Positions 9,537 to 18,691 of a stretch of 62,601 nucleotides of DNA are shown here, one piece after another; position 1 is the first letter of the stretch; the number at the start of each line of letters is the position of its first letter. Below the pieces are notes generated by a model. That model searched no databases. It saw only the letters and a program-made list of their open reading frames with translations, and was not told the origin of the DNA. The translations under genes were made by a program, and so were the position numbers. The DNA lies in NCBI GenBank assembly GCA_002898315.1, contig BEHV01000011.1, forward strand, positions 1-62,601, read 5' to 3'. The stretch comes from a bacterium HR19 (GTDB lineage Bacteria; Calescibacteriota; Calescibacteriia; Calescibacteriales; Calescibacteriaceae).

Positions 9537-10592
9537 ATGAGCGCCTTCCTCCCTCTGATTCCCGTTATATTAGCAGGTGGAGGAGGAAGGCGCCTTTTTC
9601 CTATCTCAACCCAAAAAAATCCCAAATACCTCCTCAAAGTAAATTCCTCAAAATCTCTCATAGAAGAAACAATAGAAAGAGCAATACTTTGCCAGAGAGA
9701 AATAAACAAATCAGAAAATTATCCTGTCTTCATCGTAACCAACATAAAACATAAAAACAAGATAAAAAAAATAGTTCAGGTTTTCAGAAGAAATGATAAG
9801 GTGGAGATAGAATATGTTTTTGAACCGCTCATGAAAAACACTGCTCCCGCAATATGCTACTCTGCCCTGAAAATCCAAGAGAAGTTCAAAGACGCCGTAA
9901 TGCTCATTTTACCATCTGACCACAAAATCCAAGACAACGACAAATTCAAAAAGTCCATAAAATCAGCTTATGAGATAGCAAAAGAAAAATTCATCGTGAC
10001 ACTCGGTATTACCCCAGAATACCCAGAAACAGGATATGGATACATAAAAATATCAGAGAAAAAATTGAAAGATGATGTCTTTGAAGTTGAGAAATTTACA
10101 GAAAAACCATCAAAAGAGAAAGCAGAGGAGTTTGTGAGGTCAGGAAAGTATTTCTGGAACGCGGGAATATTTGTAACCAGAACTTCTACTATACTTGAAG
10201 AACTGGCGAAGTATACAGAAATTCCGAAAGTTATGGAAGAGCACGATATAAAAAAGGCATACGAAATTGTGCCGGAAATCTCAATAGATTATGCGGTCTG
10301 CGAGAGGTCAAACAAAATGGCTTGCGTTATCGCAGATTTCAAATGGTCAGATGTCGGCTCCTTCAAAGCAATAAAAGAACTCCTCAAAAACGATGAATAC
10401 GGAAACGCAGGTGATGCCGACTTCATAGAATCTAAAAACTCATTCGTCATCTCACAAAATAACAGAATAAAAAAAATAATCCTCTTCGGAGTTGAAAATT
10501 TAGTAGTGGCAGAAGGAGAGGACTTCCTACTTATAACCTCTCTTGAAAAGAGTCAGGACATCAAAAAAGTATCTCAAAAATACGATAAATAA
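9537..10592 (+). CDS. manC: Mannose-1-phosphate guanylyltransferase
   Basis: 351 residues. It makes GDP-mannose from mannose-1-phosphate and GTP for glycan and LPS synthesis. The nucleotidyltransferase signature ILAGGGGRRLFPIST with Lys in NPKYL is at the N-terminus. LPSDHKI, PETGYGYIKI, FTEKPSKEKA, YFWNAGIFV and FKWSDVGSF follow in the family order. It lacks the C-terminal isomerase domain of bifunctional ManC/AlgA. It starts only 9 bases after groEL without an SD. Confidence 0.93.
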   Translation: MSAFLPLIPVILAGGGGRRLFPISTQKNPKYLLKVNSSKSLIEETIERAILCQREINKSENYPVFIVTNIKHKNKIKKIVQVFRRNDKVEIEYVFEPLMKNTAPAICYSALKIQEKFKDAVMLILPSDHKIQDNDKFKKSIKSAYEIAKEKFIVTLGITPEYPETGYGYIKISEKKLKDDVFEVEKFTEKPSKEKAEEFVRSGKYFWNAGIFVTRTSTILEELAKYTEIPKVMEEHDIKKAYEIVPEISIDYAVCERSNKMACVIADFKWSDVGSFKAIKELLKNDEYGNAGDADFIESKNSFVISQNNRIKKIILFGVENLVVAEGEDFLLITSLEKSQDIKKVSQKYDK

Positions 10593-10625: not shown

Positions 10626-11579
10626 ATGCAGAAATTTTTATATTTCGTAATTTACTCCCCAGGATTTTCGGGAAGCTTATTTTTATCAAAGGTTATCAAC
10701 TCCCACAAAGATGTCATCTGCCTGCATGAAACAGAAATGTTTGAAGCATTAAAAATCCACAACGATGGAAAAATAGAAACGAAATTTTTCTTTGAACTCA
10801 ACGAAATAAATAAGTTCAGCAGACACCTTTTCTTTATGACCCCATTCCTCCATCACTACTTTAATGCATATAAAGCAGTAGGAACAGTTGAAACAGGAAG
10901 AGTAAATATAGAATTCTCTTTGAATATCCTTGAGCATTATAGAAGGTTTCAAGAAGAATCGGGAAAAAATGTTGAACTCAAAATCGGATTTCTTATAAGG
11001 TCTCCGATAAAAGTTATAAACTCCCTTTTCAGAGAATTTTCAAAGATATTTTATCTTATCCAGAGTCGGGATGAAAAAATTTCAGCACTTGAAAGGTATT
11101 TTTCAGCAATAGCCGAATACACGGTTTCAAAAAACTACATCAAAAAAGATAAATTAGAGGGAATATTAGAGATGTCAAGAAAATCAGGAGAGATACTATT
11201 TCTTGGCTCAACTATTATCGTTTTCTCATTTTCAAAAGAAATATCAAACCTCATGAAAGAAAACCCAAAATACACACTCTTCAAACTTGAGGAGATAACA
11301 AAAGATAAAACGATTTTTGAGAAAAAACTCAAAGAGATAACAGAACAAGAGTATAATCTGAGCGAATCTATATTGAAAGAGAAAGTAAATCAAAAGCATA
11401 ATTCCGAAGATGAAACAGGCGTTATAAAAAGCTGGAACAGATACCAAAGGGAAATTTTTCTCTCGGTATTTGAAAACTGTGAAGAAGAACTGAATCTACT
11501 GGGCTACGGTTATATTTTAGAATACTTCTCTCCACAGCAAATAAGAGCCAGAAAAGTTCATTATTATTTTCTTACATAA
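10626..11579 (+). CDS. Sulfotransferase-like protein
   Basis: 317 residues. The N-terminal IYSPGFSGSLFLSKVINSH looks like the phosphosulfate-binding loop of sulfotransferases (normally PRSGSTLLxxLL), and it is followed by the usual CLHETEMF-type segment. LIRSPIKVINSLFREF at about residues 122-137 resembles the 3'-phosphate motif RDPxxVxxSxxR. Members transfer sulfate from PAPS to sugars or lipids. The loop lacks the usual Lys/Arg-Ser-Gly-Thr, so activity is uncertain. The neighbour manC suggests a sugar context, but this is inference. A GATAAT box lies 11 bases before the ATG with no SD. Confidence 0.5.
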   Translation: MQKFLYFVIYSPGFSGSLFLSKVINSHKDVICLHETEMFEALKIHNDGKIETKFFFELNEINKFSRHLFFMTPFLHHYFNAYKAVGTVETGRVNIEFSLNILEHYRRFQEESGKNVELKIGFLIRSPIKVINSLFREFSKIFYLIQSRDEKISALERYFSAIAEYTVSKNYIKKDKLEGILEMSRKSGEILFLGSTIIVFSFSKEISNLMKENPKYTLFKLEEITKDKTIFEKKLKEITEQEYNLSESILKEKVNQKHNSEDETGVIKSWNRYQREIFLSVFENCEEELNLLGYGYILEYFSPQQIRARKVHYYFLT

Positions 11580-11616: not shown

Positions 11617-12993
11617 GTGGAAGAGGGAGCAAATCTTTTATATAAAATTATTGATGACCTTGAATTTATTCGCTCTGCTCTTCCTGAAATGGGTTCGATA
11701 TATGAGGCAGAAGAACTTAAAGAAAAAGCGAAAAAATTCATAAAAGAGAGCAGAGATAAGATAGAAATTTTTGAAAGCAAAGCAGAAGAAAATCCATCAT
11801 ACTTTGATTGGGATATAGCAAAAATCGGGACGAAATTTGGATTTCTTTCTCTTGTAATACCCAAAGAGTTCGGTGGCGGAGGAACGAAAGCGCTTCCCTA
11901 TTCTGTTTTCATAGAAGAACTTTGTTCAGAGTCAGCAGGGATTGGAAATGTTTTTGGAGCTCACGCTCTTGGTCTGACTCCAATACTCCTTTCACCGTAC
12001 CTCTTTTCATTCACACACATAATAAAAGAGGTTGTAGAGAGAGAAAAGAAAGGCGAACCCATTTTATTTGCGTTTGGATTAACTGAACCAACAGGAGGTT
12101 CAGATGTCCAGCAAGATGAAAAGTGGCTCAAAAAAGCAAAAATGACAACAAAAGCACAGAAAGTAAAAGGTGGATACATACTGAATGGCAGAAAGGTGTT
12201 CATATCCAACGGTTCTGTTGCAAAATACATAACAGTTTTCGCTCAAACCTCATCACCAGAAAAAATGATGTGTCTTCTCGTAAATTCAGAAATGAAAGGT
12301 TTTTCTATTGGAAGAGTTGAAGATAAGATGGGACAGAAAACATGCCACGCAGCAGAACTCATATTTGAAGACGTATTCATACCAGATGACATGGTCGTAA
12401 TTCCAGAAGGCAACGCACCGCTGATAAACCGTGTGATACTCTCAACAACAAGAGCACCAGTAGGAGCAATAGCAACAGGAATAGCAAAAGGAGCAATAAA
12501 AAAAGTAATAGAAATCGCAGAAGATAAAGACGAACAATTCGCACTGAAAATATCAGAAGCAATATCAAAGCTCTTTATGGCAAGAATGCTGTGGATAACC
12601 TCATGCACAATAATAGATAAAGAAGGTTCAATGAAACTCAGCCAGAACATCATCGTAAAACTCATAGCCAAAATATTTTCAAAAATAAACTCGTTAGACC
12701 AAAACCTCACAAGAAAGCTCGGAAGGAAATTAGGAGATAGAATAAAAGATGTTTTCTTTGGTGTCCTGAGCAGGAACCTCAAAAAGATAGAATCACTATC
12801 TTCAATCGCAAAATTCTCCTCAACCCAACTTAGCTTTGAAGTATGCAATATATGTATGGAGATTCTTGGGGAAAAATCAGTTGATAAATCTCTGAAAATA
12901 GAGAGATTTCTGCGCGATGTGAGATTGACACAAATTTACGAAACGACAAATGAAGTGAATAAAATTATCTTGTGGAAAAACCTGTTCGCCTGA
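11617..12993 (+). CDS. Acyl-CoA dehydrogenase family protein
   Basis: 458-residue FAD enzyme introducing an alpha-beta double bond into an acyl-CoA. Visible are the helical N-terminal domain with IPKEFGGGG, the flavin motif FGLTEPTGGSD, YILNGRKVFISNG in the beta domain, and the C-terminal QIYETTNEVNKIIL, which contains the position of the catalytic Glu in medium-chain enzymes. It is about 70 residues longer than usual because of a Lys-rich insertion between the first C-terminal helices (about residues 335-385). The start is a GTG at 11617 without an SD. It sits 18 bases ahead of the MmgE/PrpD gene and may belong to a CoA-ester pathway with 17154-18691. Confidence 0.87.
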   Translation: MEEGANLLYKIIDDLEFIRSALPEMGSIYEAEELKEKAKKFIKESRDKIEIFESKAEENPSYFDWDIAKIGTKFGFLSLVIPKEFGGGGTKALPYSVFIEELCSESAGIGNVFGAHALGLTPILLSPYLFSFTHIIKEVVEREKKGEPILFAFGLTEPTGGSDVQQDEKWLKKAKMTTKAQKVKGGYILNGRKVFISNGSVAKYITVFAQTSSPEKMMCLLVNSEMKGFSIGRVEDKMGQKTCHAAELIFEDVFIPDDMVVIPEGNAPLINRVILSTTRAPVGAIATGIAKGAIKKVIEIAEDKDEQFALKISEAISKLFMARMLWITSCTIIDKEGSMKLSQNIIVKLIAKIFSKINSLDQNLTRKLGRKLGDRIKDVFFGVLSRNLKKIESLSSIAKFSSTQLSFEVCNICMEILGEKSVDKSLKIERFLRDVRLTQIYETTNEVNKIILWKNLFA

Positions 12994-13011
12994 CCAAAAT
13001 TTTTTAACGCG

Positions 13012-14412
13012 ATGATTTTAGAAATTACAAGAGACCTTGTAAAAGAGCTTTCAAAAATTGAGATTCCCAAAGATATAAAAAAAGCAGTATTTTTACAGGT
13101 AGAGAACCTGAAACTATCTGCTGAGATAGGAAAAAAGAAGCTCAAATTTTCAGAAGAAAAGGCAGAGAAATTAGGAATAAAACCCCCCTTGCTTCAAATC
13201 GCCCTGAACTCATCTGCTTCTATGATGTATGATTGGGATGATTACCTTTTTGCTGGACATACAGGACACTCAGCGGTCTTCACCGCTCTCGCATTAGGAG
13301 AAGAATTCAAAATCCCAGAAGGAAAAATAATGAGAGCAATCTTTATAGGCAACGAGATCGGAGGAAGATTTGGAATACTGACCCTGATAGGACCTCTGAA
13401 CGGGCAGATGATGACCCATATTCACGGAATAATATCAGCAACCATCACCGAGTATCTTATAGGAAAAATAGACAACATTCCAAAAAGAATATGCTCCTAC
13501 ATATCAAATCCGCACTTCATACATTTTGAAGGATTTATGGGAGGTGAAACAAAAGTATTTACCGCATCTTTCCCGATAGTTCAGGGAGTCATTTCATCTT
13601 TGTTTGATGTCAGAGAAAATCAATACTCCGAGGAAGGTTTTATGCGTATTTTCTCGTGGAACGATTTTTCAGAAGATACAATTAAAACCATTTTTTCTCC
13701 TGATTTTTTCCTCACAAGAACGCTGATGATAAAAAAGTATCCGGGATGCGCTTATGTTCTCCCACAGATTGAATGTGCTCTCAAAATAAAAAGGAAAATA
13801 GAAGAGAATTTTGAGAGATTTGACATAGATTGCATAAAAGAGATTGAGGTAGAGTATTCTATAATACCTGCTCTGCTTGATGTTATTTCATCTCGCTATC
13901 TTGATTTTTCAAGCCATATCCCAGCTCAGTTTTCAACGTATGGAGCGGTAGCGCTTGCTCTTTGCGATAAAAATTTCACCCCGGAAACCTACGAGAAAGT
14001 TCGCTCACACAAAAACTCCATACTCAAAATAATATCAAAAATAAAAACAAAACACAATACAAAATACACAAGAAAAATCCTTGAAAAAGTTTCTGATAGT
14101 TTCCCTTTTCTTTATGGAGAAAAACCACCATCGGTAAAAAACATATTGAAAGCTATATCACACTCCCACATAAAAATATCTCATCTTTTGAAGGAAGGAG
14201 TTTTTATTATTCCCGCACTGATCACAAACAGAATCAAAACAGAGAGAAAAATCAAAGATGATTTCGAATTCATCTTTCCTGCAAAGGTCAAAATTCAATA
14301 CAAAGACCTTTTACTTGAAGAAGAAGCAATATCACATTCAGCCCCCGCAATATCAGAAGATGCAGAAAAAAACATTCAAGAGAAAAGAGAAATAGTAATT
14401 GAGAAAGCTTAA
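13012..14412 (+). CDS. MmgE/PrpD family protein
   Basis: 466 residues. The family includes 2-methylcitrate dehydratase, cis-aconitate decarboxylase and iminodisuccinate epimerase. The typical segment YDWDDYLFAGHTGHSAVFTA (residues ~75-95) followed by AIFIGNEIGGRFG is present, as is a middle region with GGETKVFTASFPIVQG. The C-terminal small domain is longer and more Lys-rich than usual. It follows an acyl-CoA dehydrogenase gene by 18 bases, suggesting the pair act on related carboxylates or CoA esters. The exact reaction is unknown. Confidence 0.75.
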   Translation: MILEITRDLVKELSKIEIPKDIKKAVFLQVENLKLSAEIGKKKLKFSEEKAEKLGIKPPLLQIALNSSASMMYDWDDYLFAGHTGHSAVFTALALGEEFKIPEGKIMRAIFIGNEIGGRFGILTLIGPLNGQMMTHIHGIISATITEYLIGKIDNIPKRICSYISNPHFIHFEGFMGGETKVFTASFPIVQGVISSLFDVRENQYSEEGFMRIFSWNDFSEDTIKTIFSPDFFLTRTLMIKKYPGCAYVLPQIECALKIKRKIEENFERFDIDCIKEIEVEYSIIPALLDVISSRYLDFSSHIPAQFSTYGAVALALCDKNFTPETYEKVRSHKNSILKIISKIKTKHNTKYTRKILEKVSDSFPFLYGEKPPSVKNILKAISHSHIKISHLLKEGVFIIPALITNRIKTERKIKDDFEFIFPAKVKIQYKDLLLEEEAISHSAPAISEDAEKNIQEKREIVIEKA

Positions 14413-14438
14413 AATCTTTTGTGAGATCAAAATTTAAA

Positions 14439-14723
14439 ATGAAAGAAAAAAGAAAAATAAACAGGTTAAAGAGAAAGATTTTCAAATTGACTCTGCTCTC
14501 TCTGCCGTTAATCACCTCTATCTCTCCTGTATCAAAAGTTCAAGCCCAAACACCACCTCCTCCCCCGGGAGGTCTACCTTCACCACGAATATATGAATCT
14601 ATAAAGAAAAAGAAGGAGAGAGAAAAAGAGGAAGAAAAAAAAGGGAAGATAAGAAGAATTTTCCCCAAAAAGAAAAAATCTATATTTGAAGAAGAAGAGG
14701 AGAAAACAGATTATCCGGATTGA
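14439..14723 (+). CDS. Small exported protein, proline-rich then Lys/Glu-rich
   Basis: 94 residues. A basic N-terminus (KEKRKINRLKRKIFK) and a hydrophobic core (LTLLSLPLITSISPV) end at a likely signal peptidase site, VQA-Q. A TPPPPPGG stretch follows and then a long mixed-charge tail (IKKKKEREKEEEKKGK). No family recognised; the tail could be disordered or coiled coil in the periplasm. An in-frame GTG at 14421 would add six residues, but the ATG gives a more normal signal peptide. Confidence 0.5.
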   Translation: MKEKRKINRLKRKIFKLTLLSLPLITSISPVSKVQAQTPPPPPGGLPSPRIYESIKKKKEREKEEEKKGKIRRIFPKKKKSIFEEEEEKTDYPD

Positions 14724-14732
14724 GCGGATTTT
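14713..14732 (+). terminator. Weak terminator-like hairpin
   Basis: ATCCG (14713-14717) can pair with CGGAT (14725-14729) over a 7-base loop, followed by TTTT (14729-14732). It overlaps the stop codon of the small exported protein and lies between convergent genes. Five base pairs is short for a terminator. Confidence 0.3.
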
Positions 14733-14749
14733 ACAAGAAATTGAAACTC

Positions 14750-16111
14750 TCAAAACTCCCTTTTTTTCCTCGCTTTATAAAAGTAGTTTCTAAAACCTTT
14801 CCAAACATTTAAAATCCTCAGGGTAAGTTCAACTTTATCTCCAACTGAAAACCTCTCACCGTCTTCAAGCTCTATTCCTTGAACATAAACTCTTGCTCCG
14901 TTTTCTGTTCTTACAACAAGCATAGGTAAAGGCGGAAAAATATCTGCATAAGTTGTGAGGTAATCTTCGGTAAATGTGAAGACCTCTCCTTCTCTTGACA
15001 TTTTCTCTTTTGAGAGGTTTTTACCTCCACAGATCTGACAGTAGTTCTGAACAGGAAAAATAGAGTTTCCGCAGTCAGAACATTTCAATCCGTAAAAAGA
15101 GAGATTCTGCTCTCTTTCTCTCCACAGAAGAGAAATAGATGATTCATCTTCGGGGAAACCGACAATATCTTTTACCTTCATGTAATCTCCGAACTTCATT
15201 TTTTTTCTTCTCTCAAAGACCTTTATGATTTCTCTGTGAGGTGAAGAATTTCCCTCAAATGTTAAAATTACACCTTTGACTCCATTTCCGAGTCCCAGAA
15301 CTGCGAGCTTATCTCCCTTTTTCAACATACCGGTGGAATAAGCAAGAGATATAGGTATTTGGGAGTTGCCAAAGCTCCCGAATGCAGAGAAAACATCATC
15401 TTTGAGTTTAAAAGTTCTCATAACCTGCAAAGCAATACCAAAAGTCGGAGATGAGAACACAACCTTGAGGTCAGGCGAAACAACTTTTTTTATCAAAAAA
15501 GAATATACCTCTGTTGCAATAAATCTCTCATCTACACATATGATTTTTCCATCTTCGGAAGAGATGGAGGGAGTTTCCTCACTTATGTGAAAGAAATCGT
15601 ACACCGAAAAAATGCCTTGTTCGTTTTCTGATGCAGGAGTTATAAAAATCGCTCCACCTCCGTCGCTGAGCCCAAAATCAATATCCCACTCTGCTCCCCT
15701 TCTTCTCTCACCAGTAGCAATCAGTACACAATCTGAAAGATGAGATTTCAAGAGCGAGTAAGCAAACTCAAAAGCGCTTACTATGCTCTCCGTTCCCCCA
15801 CTGATTGAAATCGTAGCAGTAGAAATCGGAAGGTCAAGAGCCCGCGAAAGTGTAACAGAAGGATTTTTCTCAAGCCAATGGTTGAAAGAAGAAGAGACAA
15901 AAATAAGAGCTAACCTTTTATCTTTTAAGTAATGGCTGTACTTTCTCACAATTTTGTAAGACGCTTCATAAGATAGAGTAAGAGGGTCTTCATCATAAGA
16001 GCAGAACGCCTTCTCGTTCGGAGCCCTCACACCTGTCTGATTCCTTATCTCCTCCCCGCTCAACCTGAAAAAAGGAACATAACCTTCAATATCCTTTATA
16101 ACTATCTTCAT
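14750..16111 (-). CDS. HMG-CoA synthase-like / DUF35 OB-fold fusion protein
   Basis: 453 residues in two parts. Residues ~1-320 resemble the thiolase-fold HMG-CoA synthase/KAS III group (FGNSQIPISLAYS, GLGNGVKGVILTFEG). Residues ~335-450 are a DUF35 domain with a Cys4 zinc ribbon (CSDCG ... CQICGG) and an OB fold (EGEVFTFTEDYLTTY). Such pairs handle acyl-CoA transfer in mevalonate and other condensation systems. Unusually, the stretch where the nucleophilic Cys is expected reads TATISISGGTES (98-109) with no Cys, and the usual catalytic His region reads VVFSSPTFG. It may be inactive or use other chemistry. It is transcribed opposite to the nearby CoA-ester genes. TAATCT lies nine bases before the ATG and there is no SD. 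Confidence 0.72.
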   Translation of the reverse strand: MKIVIKDIEGYVPFFRLSGEEIRNQTGVRAPNEKAFCSYDEDPLTLSYEASYKIVRKYSHYLKDKRLALIFVSSSFNHWLEKNPSVTLSRALDLPISTATISISGGTESIVSAFEFAYSLLKSHLSDCVLIATGERRRGAEWDIDFGLSDGGGAIFITPASENEQGIFSVYDFFHISEETPSISSEDGKIICVDERFIATEVYSFLIKKVVSPDLKVVFSSPTFGIALQVMRTFKLKDDVFSAFGSFGNSQIPISLAYSTGMLKKGDKLAVLGLGNGVKGVILTFEGNSSPHREIIKVFERRKKMKFGDYMKVKDIVGFPEDESSISLLWREREQNLSFYGLKCSDCGNSIFPVQNYCQICGGKNLSKEKMSREGEVFTFTEDYLTTYADIFPPLPMLVVRTENGARVYVQGIELEDGERFSVGDKVELTLRILNVWKGFRNYFYKARKKREF

Positions 16112-16176
16112 TTCTCTTTTAGATTATTCAGTTCAAAAACAATTTTTAAACTTCCGAAAACTCTTAAATGCCGAAA

Positions 16177-16182
16177 TAAAAT
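16177..16182 (+). promoter_or_regulatory. Candidate -10 box for leaderless nadC mRNA
   Basis: TAAAAT (five of six matches to TATAAT) ends nine bases before the nadC ATG at 16192. The bases between (TGAAAAATT) contain no SD. The predicted transcript start is two or three bases before the ATG. Confidence 0.4.
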
Positions 16183-16191
16183 TGAAAAATT

Positions 16192-17133
16192 ATGGAGCCA
16201 AAGATATTGAAAGAAGCGAGACAAAAAGCAAAAGCTGAAATATATCAGTGCATAAAAAAGTGGTTCTCCGAAGACGAAATAAAAAAAGACATAACGACCG
16301 AGTTCCTCGGAATAGGAGAAAAAAGAGGCAAGCTGATTTTATTCTCAAAGAACGCGGAGGATTTCATAGTCGCTGGTGTTGATTTTTTGAAAATTCTTTT
16401 TGAAGAGGTACAGAAAATTCTTTTCAAGAATTCAAGAGAAAAAATAAAGTTCCGCAAGCTCAAAAGTGATGGAGATATAGTGAAAAGTGGAGAAAAAATC
16501 GCTGAGATAGAAGGAAGAATGAAGGTTCTGTTTGCTACAGAGAGGCTGAACATAAATCTTCTCTCACGGCTCTGCGGAATAGCTACTGAAACCGCAAAAC
16601 TTGTGAGCGAAGCGAAAAAATACGGAATAGAGGTCTGCGCTACAAGAAAAACAACACCGGGACTCCGATTTTTAGAAAAATACGCAGTCGCAGTGGGAGG
16701 CGGAAATCCTTACAGATTCTCCCTCTCATCAGCAATAATGATAAAAGATAACCATATAATAGCATGTGGGGGAATTGAAAAAATAAGAGAGATAATAACA
16801 AAAAACAGAAAAAAATCAGAAAAACTGAGAGATGTTATAATAGAGGTTCAAAAAATGATAGATTTAGAAGAAGTTCTGAAAATAGCAAAGGAGCTGAAAA
16901 ATATATCGGTAATGCTTGATAACTTTCCGAGAGATTCTATTGGAGAAGCGATAAAGAAGATAAGGGAGTTTTCACACAGAGAAAATTTGAAAGTTCTCAT
17001 TGAAATCTCGGGAGGTATAAAACCTGAAAAACTTCCTGATATAGCAGAACTAAAACCAGATAGAATTTCAGCAGGATACATAACATCAAGCCCGAAAATT
17101 CCCGATATTTCAGCAGATATAATTGCTCTATAA
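16192..17133 (+). CDS. nadC: Nicotinate-nucleotide pyrophosphorylase (quinolinate phosphoribosyltransferase)
   Basis: 313 residues. It converts quinolinate and PRPP to nicotinate mononucleotide in NAD synthesis. DITTEFLG, ERLNINLLSRLCGIAT, ATRKTTPGLR, KYAVAVGGG and IMIKDNHI are the family landmarks in order. At the GGGxxHR motif, which contributes to the substrate site, it reads GGGNPYR, with Tyr in place of His. It is slightly longer than the usual 280 residues. No SD; see the -10 box at 16177. Confidence 0.93.
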   Translation: MEPKILKEARQKAKAEIYQCIKKWFSEDEIKKDITTEFLGIGEKRGKLILFSKNAEDFIVAGVDFLKILFEEVQKILFKNSREKIKFRKLKSDGDIVKSGEKIAEIEGRMKVLFATERLNINLLSRLCGIATETAKLVSEAKKYGIEVCATRKTTPGLRFLEKYAVAVGGGNPYRFSLSSAIMIKDNHIIACGGIEKIREIITKNRKKSEKLRDVIIEVQKMIDLEEVLKIAKELKNISVMLDNFPRDSIGEAIKKIREFSHRENLKVLIEISGGIKPEKLPDIAELKPDRISAGYITSSPKIPDISADIIAL

Positions 17134-17153
17134 AAGATTTTTACTTTCTTAAT

Positions 17154-17939
17154 ATGCAATTTGAAGACATAATATACCAGAAAGATAAAGGAATTGCAAC
17201 GCTGATAATAAATAGACCAGAAGTCCTCAATGCATTTAGGACGAAAACAATTGAAGAACTCTCTTCCGCCCTTGAAGATGCGGGAAATGACAGAAAAGTA
17301 GGAGTAATAGTGATAAAAGGAGCCGGTGAAAAAGCGTTCTGCGTAGGAGGAGATATTCAAGAGATGAAAAATTTTGACTACTGGTCCGGAAGAAACTTCC
17401 TTTTAAAATTCCTCAATTTCCTCCTGCTCATAAGAAAAGTTCCAAAGCCAGTGATATGCGCAGTAAAAGGATACTGCCTTGGAGGAGGAAATGAAATAAA
17501 TATATCTTGCGACCTCACAATAGCAACAGAGGATTCAATCTTCGGACAAGTTGGACCAAAGGTTGGTTCAGTACCGGTAATAGGGGGAACCCAATTCCTT
17601 CCGAGAATAGTCGGAGAGAAGAAAGCAAGAGAAATGGTGTTCTTATGTAATCAGTATTCGGCTTATGAGGCATTACAGATGGGATTGATAAATAAGGTTG
17701 TTCCAAGAGAAAAGTTTGATGAGGAAGTAAATTTGTGGTGCCAGAGGATTTTGGAACTAAGTCCTCAAGCTTTGAGGATAGCCAAACTCTCTTTCAATTT
17801 TGAAAGCGACCAACTTTACCCTTCGTTCCTCCACGCGGTTGAAATCCTCTCACAAATATATGATACAGAGGAATTCAAAGAAGGTATGAACAGCTTTCTG
17901 GAAAAAAGGAAACCAGATTTCTCAAAATTCAGGAGGTAA
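17154..17939 (+). CDS. BadI/MenB-like crotonase (2-ketocyclohexanecarboxyl-CoA hydrolase-like)
   Basis: 261-residue enoyl-CoA hydratase superfamily protein. The N-terminus MQFEDIIY and the C-terminal EGMNSFLEKRKPDFSKF closely resemble what I recall of BadI, which opens the ring of 2-ketocyclohexanecarboxyl-CoA to pimelyl-CoA. The related MenB (dihydroxynaphthoyl-CoA synthase) shares GQVGPKVGS and VGEKKAREM. The oxyanion motif GYCLGGGNE is intact. The segment 138-145 reads GSVPVIGG where BadI/MenB have GSxD..YG, so the conserved Asp is replaced by Pro141; the reaction may differ. The next gene is BadH-like, supporting a ring-cleavage role. No SD before the ATG. Confidence 0.7.
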   Translation: MQFEDIIYQKDKGIATLIINRPEVLNAFRTKTIEELSSALEDAGNDRKVGVIVIKGAGEKAFCVGGDIQEMKNFDYWSGRNFLLKFLNFLLLIRKVPKPVICAVKGYCLGGGNEINISCDLTIATEDSIFGQVGPKVGSVPVIGGTQFLPRIVGEKKAREMVFLCNQYSAYEALQMGLINKVVPREKFDEEVNLWCQRILELSPQALRIAKLSFNFESDQLYPSFLHAVEILSQIYDTEEFKEGMNSFLEKRKPDFSKFRR

Positions 17940-17941
17940 TT

Positions 17942-18691
17942 ATGATAAGCTTAAAGAACAAGGTGGTGATAGTAACCGGCGGAGCATCGGGAATAGGAAG
18001 AGCTATATCAACACTATTTGTCCAACTTTCGGCAAAAGTTGTAATAGCAGACATAAATACCAAAGAGGGAGAAAATTTATCAAAGGAGATAAACGCTTTG
18101 TTTGAACACACAGATATAACCCAGCTTGAAAGCGTAAGAGAAACGACAAAAAAAGTAAAAGAAAAGTTAGGGAAAATAGATGTTCTTGTAAACAGCGCTG
18201 GATGGGATGAGATAAAACCTTTTTTAGAAACTACCCCAGAATTTTGGGAAAAAGTAATATCTATAAACTTCAAGGGAGTGATAAATACTACCTACTGTGT
18301 TCTTCCATATATGATAGAGGCAAAAAATGGTGTGATAATTAATATATCGTCAGATGCGGGAAGAGTTGGAAGTAGCGGGGAAGCGGTGTACTCAGGTTGC
18401 AAAGCCGGAATCATAGGGTTTAGCAAAGCGATAGCAAGAGAGTATGCAAAAGACGGGATAAGAGTAAATATAATATGTCCTGGGCCAACGCGAACGCCCC
18501 TTCTTGAAAGCATCACAAAAGACCAACTGGGAGCAAAAATAATTTCAGCTATGGAAAAATACATACCTTTGGGAAGACTGGGTAGTCCAGAAGATATAGC
18601 GCCAGCGGTAGCATTTCTTGCATCTGATTATGCTTCTTATATAACGGGGCAGGTCATAAGCATAAGCGGTGGGCTCACTATGGTCGGATAA
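17942..18691 (+). CDS. BadH-like short-chain dehydrogenase/reductase
   Basis: 249 residues. The classical SDR features are present: TGGASGIG (12-19), NSAG (84-87), Ser136/137, Tyr150 and Lys154 (YSGCK). The stretch NSAGWDEIKPF and the run SSDAGRVGSSGEAVYSGC resemble BadH, the NAD-dependent 2-hydroxycyclohexanecarboxyl-CoA dehydrogenase, and the C-terminal GQVISISGGLTM fits too. It would make the 2-keto substrate for a BadI-type hydrolase, whose gene lies immediately upstream. The SD AGGAGGT (17931-17937) overlaps the upstream stop codon, so translation is probably coupled. A general 3-hydroxyacyl-CoA or 3-oxoacyl-ACP reductase is the alternative. Confidence 0.75.
   Translation: MISLKNKVVIVTGGASGIGRAISTLFVQLSAKVVIADINTKEGENLSKEINALFEHTDITQLESVRETTKKVKEKLGKIDVLVNSAGWDEIKPFLETTPEFWEKVISINFKGVINTTYCVLPYMIEAKNGVIINISSDAGRVGSSGEAVYSGCKAGIIGFSKAIAREYAKDGIRVNIICPGPTRTPLLESITKDQLGAKIISAMEKYIPLGRLGSPEDIAPAVAFLASDYASYITGQVISISGGLTMVG

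Follow-up and report, generated by a model that had tools for sequence, protein, structure and literature searches.

Does a group of genes for CoA-ester enzymes in bacterium HR19 encode a ring-cleavage pathway for alicyclic acids, or does it hold parts of a more general acyl-CoA metabolism? The genes lie at positions 11617-18691 of contig BEHV01000011.1, which was analyzed over its full length of 62,601 nucleotides (the window). A preliminary description had placed five such genes within 7 kb, namely those for an acyl-CoA dehydrogenase (ACAD), an MmgE/PrpD protein, a fusion of a 3-hydroxy-3-methylglutaryl-CoA (HMG-CoA) synthase-like (HMGS-like) part with DUF35, a BadI/MenB-like crotonase, and a BadH-like dehydrogenase. 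All five reading frames were recovered, and two further genes, nadC and a short open reading frame (ORF), were located between them:

11617..12993 (+): ACAD of 458 aa, long form with an insert in the C-domain; Pfam Acyl-CoA_dh_N/M/1 above cut-offs
13012..14412 (+): divergent MmgE/PrpD-like protein of the DxDDY-GHTGHS subfamily; MmgE_PrpD_C above cut-off
14421..14723 (+): Lys/Pro-rich ORF of 100 aa without confident family, 8 bp past the MmgE-like gene; the copy in the nearest species is 89% identical
14750..16111 (-): fusion of a Cys-less HMGS-like part (residues ~1-300) with a zinc-ribbon/OB-fold part of DUF35/ChsH2 type (~329-435); profile matches 6ESQ_I and 6ESQ_E
16192..17133 (+): nadC, quinolinate phosphoribosyltransferase (TIGR00078, 228.5 bits; cut-off 198.4)
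17154..17939 (+): crotonase-fold protein whose subfamily is distinct from both MenB and BadI (GGGNE..SxP..GTQ)
17942..18691 (+): short-chain dehydrogenase/reductase (SDR) of the BadH-type clade (SSDAGRVGSSGE), a probable 3-hydroxyacyl-CoA dehydrogenase

We consider, with about even confidence, that the five genes belong, as scattered parts, to an acyl-CoA toolkit of the beta-oxidation type and do not form the alicyclic bad-ali pathway. The ACAD would form an enoyl-CoA, which the crotonase most likely hydrates, and the BadH-type SDR would oxidize the 3-hydroxyacyl-CoA. The fusion would serve as the scaffold half of a complex that cleaves the 3-ketoacyl-CoA, with a thiolase encoded on another contig (G000:C4:91585-92733, G000 being the window genome) as the catalytic subunit. 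The MmgE-like protein most likely epimerizes an acid at its alpha carbon, and the ACAD could then use both stereoisomers. This reading draws on the protein families, gene pairs, residue changes, phylogeny, distribution, and the presence of the thiolase, all observed in the genomes; the five proteins may catalyze these reactions in one route, perhaps on alpha-branched acids.

The crotonase was rejected as BadI on score, phylogeny, and catalytic residue. It scored 282.6 bits against BadI (TIGR03210; NCBIfam cut-off 467.6) and 274.9 bits against MenB (cut-off 342.7), and none of its tested relatives reached either cut-off. As the BadI equivalog cut-off was passed by none of 232 genomes, it is strict, and because NCBIfam equivalog cut-offs are strict for divergent lineages, the tree and the residues weigh more than the scores. 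In the maximum-likelihood tree, the crotonase and its relatives fell outside a clade (support 100/99) of MenB, BadI, and a third group. In the alignments, it has GGGNE and FGQVGPKVGSVP..GTQFLPR where BadI and MenB have GGGxV and VGS(V/F)D, and it carries Pro141 where the VGSxD motif has its catalytic Asp (SVD/SFD in the BadI/MenB rows). In E. coli MenB, Asp-163 of this motif is catalytically essential, and in type I MenB, bicarbonate fills the catalytic-base position of other crotonases (PMC3637252). Alignment to the row of enoyl-CoA hydratase (ECH) placed Glu114 of the crotonase at the first ECH Glu position and Gly134 at the second. These two positions we take to be Glu144 and Glu164 of rat ECH. 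Thus, of the pair of catalytic Glu residues that marks a classical enoyl-CoA hydratase, the crotonase keeps only the first.

A scan of the genome collection retrieved relatives of the crotonase (49-66% identity) in Deltaproteobacteria, Chloroflexota, Actinomycetota, Symbiobacteriaceae, and Jordarchaeia. A 3-hydroxyacyl-CoA dehydrogenase of the HBD type adjoins the subfamily crotonase in seven loci (L075, L078, L079, L080, L081, L082, and G018), which were drawn from Deltaproteobacteria, Chloroflexota, Actinomycetota, Jordarchaeia, and further metagenome-assembled genomes, and a BadH-type SDR adjoins it in the window genus and on Rhodococcus pRHL3. The recurring partner is a 3-hydroxyacyl-CoA dehydrogenase from either of two enzyme families, which would fit a hydratase role. 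ACADs lie near the subfamily crotonase in L075, L080, L082, L083, and pRHL3, and thiolases with OB-fold or HMGS-like proteins in L075, L084, and pRHL3. The order in L080 is ACAD-crotonase-HBD, with the crotonase as the sole hydratase-type gene seen there, and the L075 locus further has a thiolase, an OB-fold protein, a ligase, and ACADs. The actinobacterial branch of the subfamily is an exception, being encoded directly before cofG/cofH of F420 synthesis (L085:10001-12006 and L274:7959-11865). Another crotonase shares a four-base overlap with a KAS III-like gene (L195:7397-9186, -).

The SDR is likely a 3-hydroxyacyl-CoA dehydrogenase, judging from its clade and signature. It fell in a clade (support 98/97) with SDRs adjoining BadI, apart from the FabG-like paralogues of G000, and carries the BadH-type signature SSDAGRVGSSGE; its score against BadH (TIGR03206) was 287.7 bits, with a cut-off of 431.2. 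Other members of the clade occur in CoA-ester clusters with no annotated BadI in the stretch read, which indicates that the clade is wider than BadH. The family names of the preliminary description thus hold at the superfamily level but not as BadI, MenB, or BadH, whose cut-offs were not reached.

Both halves of the fusion were as described previously: its family profile matched the HMGS chain I (4.2e-61) and the DUF35 chain E (4e-26) of 6ESQ, and also PhlA and PhlB of PpATase. The residues corresponding to Cys114 and Glu82 of the 6ESQ HMGCS are both absent from all 15 family rows, a loss that makes an HMG-CoA synthase activity unlikely. PhlA is likewise without the same Cys and Glu, and the chemistry of PpATase is done by the thiolase-like PhlC (PMC6392133). 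Outside the family, a PRK06157-type thiolase directly adjoins the fusion gene in 23 of 24 loci (17/18 genes in other genomes and 6/6 plasmid loci). A thiolase 56-59% identical to one such partner is present in all five genomes of the family, on another contig than the fusion, and that of G000 keeps the thiolase Cys and gave its best alignment with the 6ESQ thiolase. Homologous HMGS-like and OB-fold parts and a Cys-bearing partner thiolase are therefore all present as genes, as in the 6ESQ and PhlACB assemblies. The loss of Cys and Glu as in PhlA, the adjacency of the thiolase elsewhere, and the thiolase of the family together suggest that the fusion most likely acts as the scaffold half of a thiolase complex, unlinked here from its partner. 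Several plasmid clusters with the fusion are catabolic, holding ACAD, HBD, hydratase, ligase, and ring dioxygenases. The fusion and the PRK06157-type thiolase are neighbors in many unrelated bacteria and one haloarchaeon (L240, L246-L253, L255, L256, L200, L203, L204, and L283-L288), the fusion going there under the annotation of OB-fold protein or of KAS III C-terminal protein.

The genes for the ACAD and the MmgE-like protein are separated by 18 bp. In the ACAD, the QIYE(G/T)TNE motif still has its Glu base (alignment to 1UKW). In the MmgE-like protein, only the C-terminal Pfam domain scored above the cut-off (43.1 vs 32.1 bits); the PF03972 search of G000 gave nothing above threshold, as the N-domain is too divergent. 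The single sequence had no match among solved structures, and a family profile was required to find MmgE/PrpD structures (IDS epimerase and IRG1-like; best E 2.3e-17). Asp74, His86, Lys181, and Lys241 are kept, the equivalents of the catalytic His and the two enolate Lys being among them. An MmgE/PrpD isomerase beside an ACAD has been characterized, namely methylsuccinate isomerase (Msi) with methylsuccinyl-CoA dehydrogenase (Mcd) (PMC12290011), and an alkylsuccinate synthase cluster also contains an MmgE/PrpD gene (PMC7180275). By analogy, the window pair would most likely epimerize an acid and then dehydrogenate its CoA ester. A protein resembling acetoacetate decarboxylase (its Pfam match is weak and does not reach the cut-off) is encoded next to the ACAD in G001 and G004, and its homologue is unlinked from the ACAD in G000 and G002 and, like the ACAD, absent from G003 (L036:11531-12298, -; L192:9534-10307, -; G000:C6:16066-16818).

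The distribution of the set was compared in five genomes of the family: G000 (a 1.88-Mb draft), G002 of the nearest species, G001 of the same genus, and G003 and G004 of other genera. The MmgE-like protein and the fusion are each present in all five, and ACAD orthologues were found in G001, G002, and G004 (4/5 genomes with the window) and not in G003. The crotonase-SDR pair is confined to the genus among these genomes; orthologues of neither were found in G003 and G004 (best matches ≤37%). The gene order is unbroken only in G002 (91-97% identity). In G001, three units lie on separate contigs (ACAD-MmgE on C4, crotonase-SDR on C23, and the fusion on C31), and ACAD and MmgE are thus neighbors in both G001 and G002. 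No neighbor of the fusion is consistently conserved across the family genomes. The set falls into two pairs that are conserved and a gene that stands alone, with three different distributions among them, and the conservation in relatives that would mark it as a unit does not extend past the nearest species. Neither the crotonase nor the SDR groups with MenB or FabG, yet the genes are not co-conserved; of the two outcomes named beforehand as speaking against the proposed route, only the second was observed.

The gene arrangement in the window agrees with this division. The fusion gene lies on the opposite strand, and operons are possible only for ACAD-MmgE and (nadC-)crotonase-SDR, with 20 bp between nadC and the crotonase gene and 2 bp between the crotonase and SDR genes. 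nadC is not a member of the acyl-CoA set; in G001, the crotonase is not beside nadC.

Several of these points weigh against a beta-oxidation-type toolkit. The unequal distribution, with crotonase-SDR in the genus only, ACAD in four of the five genomes, and MmgE and the fusion in all, counts against one fixed pathway, and all five genomes are drafts of 82-86% completeness (82% for G000). The missing second ECH Glu (Gly134) counts against the crotonase as a classical hydratase and makes its hydratase chemistry no more than putative. The MmgE-like protein has no equivalents of the carboxylate-binding His88 and His152 of Msi, and with these binding residues changed, the substrate of the window pair would differ from that of Msi/Mcd.

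Among the other explanations, a chance neighborhood has a minor but appreciable likelihood: two unrelated gene pairs and a lone gene would have come to lie together in an acyl-CoA-rich genome whose pathways lie outside operons. The set is spread over three contigs in G001 and is further split in G003 and G004, and in G000 the matches of ACAD type (14), crotonase type (6), and SDR type (10) are scattered. However, the families co-cluster in other phyla. A cluster on plasmid QY30 holds AliB, BadI, BadH, the HMGS-OB fusion, and a thiolase (assigned by similarity to annotated relatives); Rhodococcus (RHA1) pRHL3 has a thiolase, an OB-fold protein, an ACAD, a hydratase, a window-type crotonase, and an SDR; Paraburkholderia caribensis has MmgE/PrpD, a CoA-transferase, and a window-type crotonase; and genomes of genus g40 have two ACADs, a BadI-side crotonase, the fusion, a thiolase, and CoA-transferase-type genes. 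Four genomes outside the family clearly match the MmgE subfamily, and every one of them also carries the fusion, compared with 9 of 55 genomes overall (P 3.7e-4, without correction for relatedness or lifestyle and with a presence threshold chosen by eye). The families of the set therefore belong loosely together across phyla. The acyl-CoA route of the preliminary description is well borne out as a catabolic toolkit, as relatives of every member occur in CoA-ester catabolic clusters elsewhere and QY30 and pRHL3 hold most of the set. The MmgE of P. caribensis was considered as a member of the same subfamily as that of the window and was rejected, the match being short (35%).

A variant of ring cleavage is rather unlikely. 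The SDR would act as BadH on a 2-hydroxycycloalkane-carboxyl-CoA, the crotonase, its active site rearranged, would hydrolyze the cyclic beta-ketoacyl-CoA, and the thiolase complex would shorten the product. The SDR shares its signature and 51-55% identity with several BadH-type SDRs whose genes neighbor those of BadI or BadI-like crotonases, the crotonase is 47-53% identical to BadI-clade proteins, the two genes are adjacent as in bad clusters, and QY30 unites AliB, BadI, and BadH with the fusion and the thiolase. Against this, the crotonase carries Pro141 and Glu114, has no catalytic Asp, and does not branch with BadI, and its subfamily stands more often beside a plain HBD than beside a BadH-type SDR. 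The window ACAD and seven paralogues of G000 scored below the cut-offs for AliB and cyclohexanecarbonyl-CoA dehydrogenase (TIGR03207/NF043006), this NCBIfam testing having covered only part of the ACAD and crotonase paralogues of the genome. No HGD-D gene (class I benzoyl-CoA reductase type) was found in the five family genomes. No AliA, BadK, or BadR is encoded beside the set, and no genome search was aimed at the AliA ligase or the BadK hydratase. The alicyclic BadH/BadI route that had been proposed is accordingly not upheld.

It is very improbable that the crotonase is the MenB of menaquinone synthesis and the SDR a FabG. The closest solved structures to the crotonase are those of MenB; the protein nevertheless scored below the MenB cut-off, lies outside the MenB clade, and has lost the catalytic Asp, no menD was found above the cut-off in the five family genomes (best 61 bits; cut-off 244.2), and the SDR lies outside the FabG-like paralogues. 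A supply of pimelyl-CoA for biotin, also suggested previously, has next to no likelihood, as its sole favorable point is the known pimelyl-CoA product of BadI (PMC9795900), the crotonase is not BadI, and the only strong bioF-like match in G000 (388.9 bits; cut-off 426.5) has MotA/B-like genes as neighbors, and no biotin genes were seen nearby. This bioF/kbl-like gene is located at L229:8742-10022 (+).

The gene set is flanked on the left by groEL and manC and on the right by gyrB and proA. The ManC-like protein (9537-10592, +; 351 aa) covers positions 1-344 of the 467-position GMP_PMI model with 288 bits (cut-off 373), and the end portion of the bifunctional protein is absent. An ORF of 317 aa (10626-11579, +), which matches nothing in Pfam or NCBIfam, separates manC from the ACAD gene; as the manC-ACAD gap is only ~250 bp in the nearest species (L038/L074), this ORF was recently gained or lost.

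What is new is less the gene set itself than two uncharacterized subfamilies and a probable misannotation. The analysis sets right the likely mislabeling of such proteins as BadI, MenB, or HMG-CoA synthase, which affects many genomes, and defines two families open to testing: a crotonase subfamily whose active site is unusual, and an HMGS-OB fusion, apparently a thiolase-complex scaffold and not an HMG-CoA synthase. The pathway claim is modest and concerns acyl-CoA catabolism in a poorly known lineage. We tentatively suggest, as an improbable extension, an undescribed catabolic route for branched or alicyclic acyl-CoAs that would be widespread in uncultured bacteria and some archaea. In it, a crotonase whose active site is a hybrid of MenB and hydratase would work with a BadH-type SDR or an HBD, a long-form ACAD with an acid isomerase of the MmgE/PrpD type, and the Cys-less HMGS-OB fusion with the PRK06157-type thiolase as a two-chain complex.

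Five known enzymes or systems are comparable with the set. The bad-ali pathway of cyclohexanecarboxylate degradation (PMC9795900) shares with the window the families of ACAD, BadH-type SDR, and BadI-like crotonase, whereas the window crotonase is not BadI, no AliB above the cut-off was found among the ACADs tested, and the set is split in a congener. At the level of single enzymes, the crotonase belongs to the same superfamily branch as BadI (TIGR03210) and is adjoined by a BadH-type SDR, but it has the extra Glu in GGGNE and Pro for Asp and lies outside the BadI/MenB clade; the SDR shares the clade and the signature of BadH and differs in its much lower score. As in Msi/Mcd, the MmgE/PrpD gene of the window is directly beside the ACAD gene, and the catalytic His and both Lys are kept; unlike Msi, the window protein belongs to the DxDDY-GHTGHS subfamily and has lost the two carboxylate-binding His, and no itaconate CoA-transferase cluster is nearby. 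The acetoacetyl-CoA thiolase/HMGCS/DUF35 complex (6ESQ) and PpATase (PhlA-PhlB-PhlC, 5M3K) combine HMGS-like and OB-fold proteins with an SCP2-type thiolase, and the loss of the HMGS Cys and Glu is common to PhlA and the window fusion. In the window, the HMGS-like and OB-fold parts are fused in one chain, the thiolase is unlinked throughout the family, and the relatives of the fusion stand in catabolic contexts.

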